Below, in pieces: positions 56,264 to 59,601 of a stretch of 64,000 bases of DNA (positions are counted from its first letter, which is position 1; every line of letters begins with the position of its first letter). This DNA comes from Sulfurimonas sp. (GTDB lineage: Bacteria > Campylobacterota > Campylobacteria > Campylobacterales > Sulfurimonadaceae), in contig JAQTZE010000003.1 in NCBI GenBank assembly GCA_028687935.1, positions 124,001 through 188,000 on the forward strand. The letters run 5' to 3'. The notes under the pieces were generated by a model, which ran no database searches, was not told the DNA's origin, and saw only the letters and a program-made list of their open reading frames with translations. Position numbers and translations under genes: made by a program.

Positions 56264-58066
56264 TTATAAAAAATGTTTTTTTATCCAATGTGAAAGAACA
56301 TAAAGACCCCAAAGATGCTGTTTGAAACTTCCTTTTGCAGCAGTTTGGATATATTTTTGTAACTCTTGGGCATGAAAAAGCCCTGTTTGCTCATTCACTT
56401 CTTCTATCAAAGAGAGTTTTCCTGAAGCGATGAGATACTCCATATAAGGATTTGCAAAACCTTTTTTCTTGCGTTTGAGGATACTTTCATCGAGCTGCGT
56501 TTTCATGATCTCTTTGAGCAGAGACTTTGTCACTTTATCTTCGTAGCGAAGATGTGGTGCGATGGAAAAAACGCAAGAGGCAAGCTCATGATCCAAAAAA
56601 GGCGTACGTGATTCGATAGAGTGCGCCATGCTCACACGGTCAAGCTTAGTCAAAAAATGCTCCGCTTGAAAAAGATTGAGATCGATATAGCTGTACCAAA
56701 TGCTTTCATCTTTGTGCCCCGAAGCTTCAAAACGATCACGATAACTTTGAAGATATTTCAGCGATTCATTATCACGGACGTTGCGTTTGAGCAGAAGATT
56801 TTTTTGTAAGTCAGTGAACTTTTCGCCTGAAGAGCGAAAGAGAAGCGTCTCATCAAAAACTCTTTTGTACCACTCCCATTCTCTATTCATAGAAAAATTT
56901 GCACGAAAATATTTTTTGAGCCAGTTTTTGTGGGCGAGGTTGGAAGCGCCTTCGATATCGAGATACTCAAAATATTGTCGATAGCCCAAAAAGAGCTCAT
57001 CACTTCCCTCGCCACTGAGGACCACTTTGAAGCCGTCTTTTTGTATCTGCTCAAATAAAAGATACAGAGGAATCGCCGCAGGGTCGTTGAGCGGCTCATC
57101 GAGCGCCTCAAAGACTTTCTCACTTGCGTTTATAAAATCATCTTGAGAAATCTCCACCGCCTTATTTTCAAGCCCTAAAAACGCAGCACTCGCCTTTGCA
57201 TTTTGTCTCTCATCGTACTTTGCAAACTCTTTATATCCCAATGAATAGGTTTGAAGTTTCGCTCCTTGTTTGAGCGCATAGGCATTGAGTGAAGCGCTGT
57301 CGATGCCTCCAGAGAGTAGTGATGCCATCGGTACATCGGCGTCTAAACGCAGAGTAATCGACTCTTGAAGGAGTTTGGAGAGTTTCTCAATTGCTTCATC
57401 TTTGGAAGTGATTTGGTTTGGCGTTGCGTTTAGGAGGTCAAAATAGCGTTCTACTTTCACGGTTGCGTTTTGATAGACAAGATACTCCCCGGCTGCGAGT
57501 TTATGGATATTTTTGAAAAAAGTATGCGGAGGCGTAGGTGCTAAAAAGCTGAGATACGACATGAGCGCATCATCACTCATCTCTTTTTTTCGTACAAGTG
57601 GCAAGAGAGCTTTTATTTCCGAAGCAAAGGCAAACGCAGTGGGAGTGTGCAGATAAAAGAGCGGTTTTTTGCCAAGTCTATCACGAAAAAGATAGAGCGT
57701 TTCGCCGTCCATAAGCGCGATGGCAAACATGCCGCGAAGGTGTTGGACAAAATCCACGCCCCATTTGAGATACGCAGCGATGATGACCTCGCTATCACCT
57801 TGCGTTTTGAACTCAAAATCAAGTTCGGCTTTGAGCTCTTTGAAGTTGTATATTTCACCATTAAAAGAGAGAAGGATATTCTTGTGCTTGAGTGGCTGAT
57901 GTGAGCGCTCGTTAGTGTCTAAGATACTGAGTCTCTGATGGGCAAAAAAGAGACCTTCTCTCTCTTCTATCCCGCAATAATCAGGTCCTCTATGCGTAAG
58001 TTTTGAAAGGGCAAACCGTGCAACACCACTATCAAATTCTCCTAAAACTCCAAAAATTGCACACAT
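56264..58066 (-). CDS. asnB: Asparagine synthase (glutamine-hydrolysing)
   Basis: MCAIFGVLGEFDSGVARFALSKLTHRGPDYCGI; MASLLSGGIDSASL; VVLSGEGSDELFLGYRQYF. Confidence 0.96.
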   Translation of the reverse strand: MCAIFGVLGEFDSGVARFALSKLTHRGPDYCGIEEREGLFFAHQRLSILDTNERSHQPLKHKNILLSFNGEIYNFKELKAELDFEFKTQGDSEVIIAAYLKWGVDFVQHLRGMFAIALMDGETLYLFRDRLGKKPLFYLHTPTAFAFASEIKALLPLVRKKEMSDDALMSYLSFLAPTPPHTFFKNIHKLAAGEYLVYQNATVKVERYFDLLNATPNQITSKDEAIEKLSKLLQESITLRLDADVPMASLLSGGIDSASLNAYALKQGAKLQTYSLGYKEFAKYDERQNAKASAAFLGLENKAVEISQDDFINASEKVFEALDEPLNDPAAIPLYLLFEQIQKDGFKVVLSGEGSDELFLGYRQYFEYLDIEGASNLAHKNWLKKYFRANFSMNREWEWYKRVFDETLLFRSSGEKFTDLQKNLLLKRNVRDNESLKYLQSYRDRFEASGHKDESIWYSYIDLNLFQAEHFLTKLDRVSMAHSIESRTPFLDHELASCVFSIAPHLRYEDKVTKSLLKEIMKTQLDESILKRKKKGFANPYMEYLIASGKLSLIEEVNEQTGLFHAQELQKYIQTAAKGSFKQHLWGLYVLSHWIKKHFL

Positions 58067-59379
58067 TAAAAATCCTTTTTGATAAACGCAACAGTGATAT
58101 CGTCTTTGAGATAGCCATCTTTAAAAAGCACTTTTGTGACGCCTAAAGTTTCTGCGATGGCATGGATATTCTCTTTTGTGAGGTAGTTATAGGTCTCGCT
58201 TTGTTTCTTGCCATACAAAATGTTGAAGACAAAAGCGTACTCGCATGAGTTGTAGCAGTTTTGCATAAACGCAACTGTCTCTGCGGGTTCTAAAATATTC
58301 ATGGCTCCGCTGCAGAGGTAGATATCTGTGTGGGGAAGTTGCTCTTGGCAGATGTCGAGGATATAAATTTCGCAGGCTGTTTGGATAGAGGCGATTTCGT
58401 ACATATCACTTAGAGAGTCTATACCGATATATTTTTTCGGGAGACGTTTTTTGCGTTGCATATAGAGATAAAGATCTCCAAAACCGCATCCAGCGTCCGC
58501 GAGAGTATAGGGGCAAAGATTTTTGGGGAGCATCGACAACAGCATCTCAAAACGCAACTCCTGATACTCTTTTGAGTGCCAGTTGAGACCTCTTGCATCC
58601 AAACCATACATCTCGATTGCCGATATGTAAAACTCTTCATTGTCTATGCGTGCCATAGTTCCCCTTTTTTTGTGAGTGCTATTATATAATACTAAGATAT
58701 AAAGGTGGTTGTGATGAGAATAGCAGTGGTAGGATTAGGCGGTGTTGGTGGATATATTTGTGCACATTTGGCGAAAACGCAGCATGAAATTGTAGGTTTT
58801 GCGCGTGGGGAGCATCTTCGTGCTATACAAACGCAGGGTTTGGAGATAGTCGAAGATGAGCTTTCTTGGAATGTGAAGTTCGATGCAAGAGAGCTTGAAG
58901 AGGCGGATGGCATATTTGACTGCGTTTTGTTTTGTGTGAAGAGTTATGACCTCGAAGAGGCGTATGAAAAAATAGCGCCTTGTATCAATAAAAAAACTAT
59001 TTTGCTGAGCTTTGCAAATGGCGTTTCCAATGGAGATACTCTGCGCAGACTTAGTGGTTCTATCGTTCTTGATGGCTGCGTTTATATCCTCTCGCATCAA
59101 GAAAAAGCAGGTCTTATCCGTAAAAAAGGAAAAGTCTTTGCAACTATCTTTGGCGGAGAAACAAACGCAGCCGCAAAGCTCAAAGAGCTTTTTGACGCGG
59201 CAGGATTACGCAATAAAGTACCAGAAGATATCAAAAAAGAGATCTGGAAAAAGTATATCTTTATCTCTGCATTTGCTACGATGACGAGCTATTATGACGC
59301 GAGTATCCGTTGCGTTTATGAGCAATATACAGACGAGGCAAAAGCGCTTTTACTAGAGATAGCTTCTGTTGCAAACGCA
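56470..59379. repeat. Densest tract of AAACGCA/TGCGTTT interspersed motif (21 copies)
   Basis: Starts at 56470, 56496, 56569, 56782, 57125, 57179, 57345, 57425, 57464, 57632, 57801, 58084, 58267, 58550, 58775, 58829, 58921, 59077, 59163, 59311, 59373. Confidence 0.9.
58066..58656 (-). CDS. Class I SAM-dependent methyltransferase
   Basis: LADAGCGFGDLYLYMQRKKRLPKKYIGIDSL; 1-nt overlap with asnB. Confidence 0.85.
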   Translation of the reverse strand: MARIDNEEFYISAIEMYGLDARGLNWHSKEYQELRFEMLLSMLPKNLCPYTLADAGCGFGDLYLYMQRKKRLPKKYIGIDSLSDMYEIASIQTACEIYILDICQEQLPHTDIYLCSGAMNILEPAETVAFMQNCYNSCEYAFVFNILYGKKQSETYNYLTKENIHAIAETLGVTKVLFKDGYLKDDITVAFIKKDF

Positions 59380-59601
59380 GTGGGTGTGGATATTTTTGAT
59401 GAGGTCCAAAAAGCACTGGAGATTGCAAGCGCTTTACCGCAAGATGCTTCGACGTCGATGCATCTGGATTTCCAAAATCACAAACGCGATGAGCTGGAGA
59501 GTTTGAGCGGCTATATTGTAAACAAAGGGAAAGAAAATGGGGTACAAACGCCTCTTATGCAAAAGATGTATGAGGCACTTTTGCCAAGACACGTAGTCTA
59601 A
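58714..59601 (+). CDS. panE: 2-dehydropantoate 2-reductase family
   Basis: MRIAVVGLGGVGGYICAHLAK; FANGVSNGDTLRRL; EIWKKYIFISAFATMTSYYDASI. Confidence 0.9.
   Translation: MRIAVVGLGGVGGYICAHLAKTQHEIVGFARGEHLRAIQTQGLEIVEDELSWNVKFDARELEEADGIFDCVLFCVKSYDLEEAYEKIAPCINKKTILLSFANGVSNGDTLRRLSGSIVLDGCVYILSHQEKAGLIRKKGKVFATIFGGETNAAAKLKELFDAAGLRNKVPEDIKKEIWKKYIFISAFATMTSYYDASIRCVYEQYTDEAKALLLEIASVANAVGVDIFDEVQKALEIASALPQDASTSMHLDFQNHKRDELESLSGYIVNKGKENGVQTPLMQKMYEALLPRHVV

Follow-up and report, generated by a model that had tools for sequence, protein, structure and literature searches.

DNA uptake words have so far been described for two families, and whether drive or selection spreads them is an old question. 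In Neisseria, the copies of the DNA uptake sequence (DUS) are conserved and are sited where shared genes tolerate them (Treangen et al. 2008, PMC2397512), and related species of the Neisseriaceae carry different words, or dialects (Frye et al. 2013, PMC3630211). In addition, the words of both Neisseria and the Pasteurellaceae are enriched in genome-maintenance genes (PMC2397512; PMC2346458). Here, we describe a short word, AAACGCAR, that fills a Sulfurimonas genome. Judged from sequence, it is most likely the DNA uptake sequence by which a naturally transformable, Sulfurimonas-like bacterium recognises its own DNA. We addressed its properties starting from three neighbouring genes in which it is particularly dense.

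Density of AAACGCA in the asnB-panE tract and in the genome

The window analysed, a stretch of 64,000 nucleotides, contains 21 copies of AAACGCA/TGCGTTT between positions 56470 and 59379 (2,910 bp). By word count, 11 of these (6.1 per kb) fall in asnB (56264-58066, minus strand), which encodes a glutamine-hydrolysing asparagine synthase of 600 aa (TIGR01536, 422.7 bits above the cut-off); they lie on the minus strand at 56470-56476, 56496-56502, 56782-56788, 57125-57131, 57425-57431, 57464-57470, and 57801-57807, and on the plus strand at 56569-56575, 57179-57185, 57345-57351, and 57632-57638. The small class-I SAM methyltransferase-like gene that follows (58066-58656, minus strand; 196 aa, weak UbiE similarity) carries three copies, at 58084-58090, 58267-58273, and 58550-58556 on the plus strand, and a profile search gave its product no DNA methyltransferase identity. 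The remaining seven (7.8 per kb) are in panE/apbA (58705-59601, plus strand), encoding a 2-dehydropantoate 2-reductase of 298 aa (TIGR00745, 198.3 bits above the cut-off), at 58775-58781, 58829-58835, 59163-59169, and 59373-59379 on the plus strand and at 58921-58927, 59077-59083, and 59311-59317 on the minus strand. This recount reproduced exactly the figures of an earlier note on this DNA (11, 3, and 7 copies, about one per 140 bp). The note had also placed the tract well above a window mean of about one copy per 500 bp, and we measured mean spacings of 139 bp in the tract, 467 bp across the window, and 542 bp across the 2.58-Mb genome. The window as a whole holds 137 copies, compared with a mean of 10.9 expected (maximum of 18 in 100 shuffles). 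In a close relative (L015, 6423-9984), the gap between panE and asnB is approximately 3.5 kb compared with 0.6 kb here (window 58081-58714), and no alignment to the methyltransferase gene was found between the two.

Genome-wide, AAACGCA occurs 4,758 times, 2407 and 2351 times on the two strands, compared with 740 times for the reversed-word control, and its density is 11.9 times that in relatives with other words. The word is sharply delimited: single changes at positions 1-6 were near background (0.6 to 1.9 times the relatives), and at position 7, tolerance was clear for G (5.1 times) and weak for C (2.9 times). The flanks showed a purine at +8, a preference for C at +9, and otherwise little signal, giving AAACGCAR. 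Coding copies were present in each of the six combinations of frame and strand, with Asn-Ala and Ala-Phe as the commonest readings; the constraint sits on the DNA word, not on codons. A mobile element as the carrier of the word was ruled out, as the copies are without similarity past approximately three flanking bases. Terminator hairpins were also ruled out, as inverted pairs closer than 30 bp showed no excess (+- 27, -+ 20, ++ 26, -- 24); such inverted-repeat terminator pairing is a secondary habit of the Neisseria and Haemophilus words. The copies showed no bias to gene ends (P = 0.24 and 0.50).

A word this numerous, spread over the whole genome, and sharply defined could in principle serve chromosome organisation, as the binding site of a segregation, nucleoid, or recombination factor of the KOPS, matS, or Chi kind. 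However, copies showed no strand polarity by local GC skew (344 vs. 365, P = 0.45), unlike KOPS and Chi, and with this strand bias relative to replication direction absent, a polar site of the Chi or KOPS type was ruled out. The switching of words within one genus, described below, would also be unexpected for such factors, and, to our knowledge, one copy per 500 bp together with amino-acid replacement exceeds the known cases of chromosome-organisation sites. We thus regard this explanation as very unlikely.

To address the distribution among genes, per-gene statistics were obtained from 748 kb of the genome in stretches, comprising 1,549 copies and 677 genes, alongside the whole-genome word counts; the genes were called as simple longest open frames, which added some noise. 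Per-gene counts were overdispersed relative to a Poisson model (chi2/df 1.44, P = 2.7e-13; simulated maximum 1.24). The earlier note had considered the copies to be unevenly spaced, with some loci preferentially filled, and had named per-gene densities fitting a Poisson model at the genome mean as the outcome that would refute it; the Poisson fit being rejected over the 677 genes, the observation of uneven density stands. Under a homogeneous Poisson model, the densest 2,910-bp stretch reached at least 21 copies in only 0.25% of simulations (P = 0.0025). Taken singly, asnB (P = 0.002, rank 5 of 677) and panE (P = 0.003, rank 6 of 677) are not extreme once the number of genes is allowed for, and the methyltransferase gene gave P = 0.13 for its copy count. 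The tract is also not unique, since the 748-kb sample contains one stretch with 24 copies (contig C39, approximately 197 kb) and one with 23 (contig C30). The 24-copy tract extends over 2.9 kb (L087:7184 onward) and covers a transporter gene of the N-acetylglucosamine type together with the gene after it.

These two further tracts of similar density, as well as a variance-to-mean ratio that climbed with bin size from 1.4 (1 kb) to 2.3 (10 kb), would fit a regional hot spot, either a word-rich import or an interval in which recombination is locally high. Against this, the densities of neighbouring genes were uncorrelated at lags 1, 2, 3, and 5 (rho 0.03; 677 genes), and when the gene order was shuffled with the copies kept per gene, a stretch of at least 21 copies arose in 24% of trials. 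Moreover, a dense asnB recurs in three close relatives, with 11, 10, and 10 copies that mostly occupy identical sites. A regional cause is therefore improbable; given the uncorrelated neighbours and the outcome of the shuffling, the tract consists mainly of hot genes lying side by side. It is an extreme of per-gene variation and no functional unit, and the idea of a special multi-gene tract was not borne out.

The densest of the 677 genes was a rad50/sbcC-like gene with 17 copies (contig C30, L252:8839-12334), adjoining mre11/sbcD with 8, and comEC (L243:6401-7678), with 9 copies, was near the top of the density ranking. The cold genes include GGDEF/EAL signalling genes, flagellin, and FtsH. 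The density of rad50, mre11, and comEC is reminiscent of the genome-maintenance enrichment of known uptake words, with three genes amounting to an anecdote.

Saturation of permitted positions and protein rewriting

We analysed the coding positions at which the encoded protein permits the word by synonymous choice. The word was present at 710 of 1,300 such positions (55%), compared with 5-6% in other-word species and 7% for permuted words. Positions of this kind were themselves commoner here than in other-word species (3.8 vs. 2.65 per kb), which indicated that amino acids were changed too, although they were scored on present-day proteins, so that the word itself has contributed to their number. 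In asnB, 8 of the 12 word sites of the clade differ in amino acid from the sister species, with changes such as Gly-Ile to Cys-Val and Lys-Asp-Lys to Lys-Thr-Gln. Thus, a process at the DNA level rewrites proteins, here a metabolic enzyme, asparagine synthase.

Copies were also conserved. Compared with L015, a Sulfurimonas MAG of 80% DNA identity, 24 of 40 copies were intact, as against 63 of 224 (28%) for permuted words; over the L015 comparison as a whole, intactness was 60-77% for the word and 28-30% for permuted words. Within asnB, the copies lie on less conserved columns (commonest-residue frequency 0.71 vs. 0.85), and word density fell with protein identity in most comparisons (rho -0.20 to -0.29), so that the densest genes tend toward lower conservation. 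Both observations agree with the earlier suggestion that dense genes are more tolerant of substitution.

These data also bear on the possibility that the word is a by-product of composition or codon usage, with the pairs Asn-Ala (AAC GCA) and Ala-Phe (GCG TTT) favoured and dense genes rich in them. Two of the six frame and strand settings indeed account for 68% of coding copies (558 + 443 of 1,474), and genes with more permitted positions are denser in the word (rho 0.72). However, copies are present in all six settings, the use of permitted positions far exceeds both that of permuted words and that in species of the same genus, and the gains in asnB occurred in several frames by amino-acid change. 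A codon artefact was ruled out by the frame and permuted-word tests, and we consider such an origin scarcely credible.

One stretch of 31% GC (C25, L095:500-8500) contains 4 copies in 8 kb compared with approximately 16 expected, the low GC content also lowering the expectation. It encodes mostly orphan proteins together with a CAP12/Pycsar TIR effector and is perhaps a recently acquired defence island.

Word switching in the genus and word-independent density of genes

Among 249 genomes sampled from the order, a strong excess of AAACGCA was observed only in this genome and one congener. In the whole genus sample, AAACGCAR was enriched at least fourfold in 28 of 135 species. Further words emerged from 20-kb samples of the remaining genus genomes: of the 135 species, another 28 were enriched for TACATGTAR and a further 8 for TCACGCAR, and 71 were enriched for none of the three. 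No species belonged to two word sets, compared with 5.8 expected to be shared by the two large sets, a figure to be read with the species not being independent. Saturation was not limited to AAACGCAR: in TACATGTA species, 59 of 67 permitted positions carried TACATGTA. On an asnB tree, AAACGCAR needed more than one origin or change and TACATGTA one or more; as a single gene tree, this is weak evidence on word switching, above all if asnB itself was transferred.

Other over-represented words were seen in relatives, namely CTCACGCAR (G016), CACATGCC (L010), AGCGCGCT (L008), AACGCCA (G249), and ACGACC (G255); these were detected in stretches L133, L010, L008, L124, and L126, with a genome-wide count for CTCACGCAR only. 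In genus g50 of another family (G086, G099, G167, G228, and others), AAACGCA was approximately twofold over the reversed word, far below the level here. AAACGCAR, TCACGCAR, and TACATGTAR share the terminal pattern A-Y-G-Y-A-R; related receptors might recognise this pattern as a common core.

The distribution among species is informative on a further explanation, in which the word is the site of a resident DNA methyltransferase, either kept because the methylated site has a use, as proposed for HIP1, or marking DNA for uptake by its methylation, in the manner of RAATTY. There are precedents for both: HIP1 represents a genome filled with a methyltransferase-linked word (PMC4390886), and Campylobacter jejuni, also a member of this phylum, restricts uptake to DNA methylated at RAATTY (PMC10046745). 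However, AAACGCAR is not a palindrome, and the PF01555 methyltransferase family, taken alone, was missing in 9 of 28 AAACGCAR, 9 of 28 TACATGTAR, and 6 of 8 TCACGCAR species; with this patchy occurrence among enriched species, a PF01555 methyltransferase as the writer of the word was ruled out. A methylated uptake mark would, moreover, remain an uptake word. An epigenetic mark thus appears unlikely, and an uptake sequence is the reading that we prefer.

Of the competence machinery, the genome encodes ComEC (on C24) and DprA (on C41), nine prepilin-like proteins, two pilin-like genes beside priA, and a type II secretion or pilus-like cluster with a secretin and an ATPase (C39, 217-227 kb); T2SSE/F and pseudopilins are among the components present. 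ComEC was present in 123 of 135 genus genomes, including most of the 71 enriched for none of the three words; with ComEC near-universal in the genus, the machinery is thus no predictor of the word.

The same genes were dense in different words. The asnB gene carries 10-11 copies of AAACGCA in the closest relatives, 5 of TCACGCA in each of two species, and 2-3 of TACATGTA in five, in comparison with means of 0.25-0.7 copies per kb of their own word in larger samples of the other-word genomes. Summed over other-word species, the methyltransferase gene, panE, and asnB reached 4.5, 4.4, and 2.4 times expectation, respectively. Between two species other than this one, G126 (TACATGTA) and G016 (TCACGCA), the densities of 243 orthologues were correlated (rho 0.31, P = 1e-6), and this correlation was retained after correction for identity, GC, and length (rho 0.23, P = 4e-4); in 300 permuted-word pools put to the same G126-G016 test, rho was at most 0.24. 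For this genome and G016 (71 genes), the correlation was significant uncorrected and lost after all corrections, and with G126 the cross-word correlation was weak. These results demonstrated a per-gene density effect that is independent of the word. Since the cross-word correlation survives correction for identity, measured tolerance is not the whole explanation, and the three neighbouring genes are dense because they are members of a gene set that fills with whichever word the species uses.

We proposed that an uptake receptor would favour DNA bearing AAACGCAR and that the imported fragments would recombine into the chromosome, so that copies born by mutation would spread and be retained by molecular drive and selection. 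Copies have indeed piled up far in excess of chance expectation, with amino-acid changes as the price and with a density particular to each gene, and asnB, the methyltransferase gene, and panE are three high-density genes that lie together. The receptor, the uptake bias, and the drive are the parts of this scheme that we infer; the abundance, the dialects, the conservation, the rewriting of proteins, and the per-gene effect are what we observed. On balance, the DNA uptake sequences of this genus may well form a third family that evolved independently, comprising at least three words switched repeatedly among close species, together with a gene-specific, word-independent capacity by which asnB, panE, and others are hot. 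Several words switching between close species provide replicate experiments in which the same genes were filled independently, and a multi-word genus thereby makes gene-level limits on copy number measurable. In addition, word switches matched to protein changes offer a route to the receptor, and such knowledge would help to direct genetic studies of these sulfur oxidisers.

Comparison with known uptake words and iterated motifs

Judged by title, the available papers on uptake sequences in Sulfurimonas, Sulfurovum, epsilonproteobacteria, or Campylobacterota, or on AAACGCA itself, gave no earlier description. As in cyanobacteria with HIP1 (PMC4390886), a short word is iterated through the genome; however, HIP1 is a palindrome linked to orphan methyltransferases, and AAACGCAR is non-palindromic. 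With the RAATTY mark of C. jejuni (PMC10046745), the word shares its phylum and, putatively, a role in the discrimination of self-DNA at uptake, but RAATTY is degenerate and depends on methylation, whereas the word in this genome is specific and 6-12 times over-represented.

The uptake signal sequence (USS) of the Pasteurellaceae and AAACGCAR are both abundant short words with less conserved surroundings. The USS are of two types within one family and are tied to competence; they share, in AAGTGCGGT and ACAAGCGGT, a GCGG core that is absent here (PMC12616744), and they are biased to gene ends (PMC2346458), whereas AAACGCAR is not.

In comparison with the DUS of the Neisseriaceae, AAACGCAR is an unrelated word in an unrelated phylum, shorter, denser (2 per kb), mostly intragenic, and not paired as terminators, and its role in uptake is putative. 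The DUS dialects share a CTG core; AAACGCAR and TCACGCAR share ACGCAR, and TACATGTAR, which unlike known uptake words has a palindromic core, shares it only loosely (AYGYAR). Nevertheless, as in the Neisseriaceae, the copies number in the thousands on both strands, are conserved and sited in permissive parts of genes, and are, anecdotally, dense in genome-maintenance genes, and the words differ between related species.
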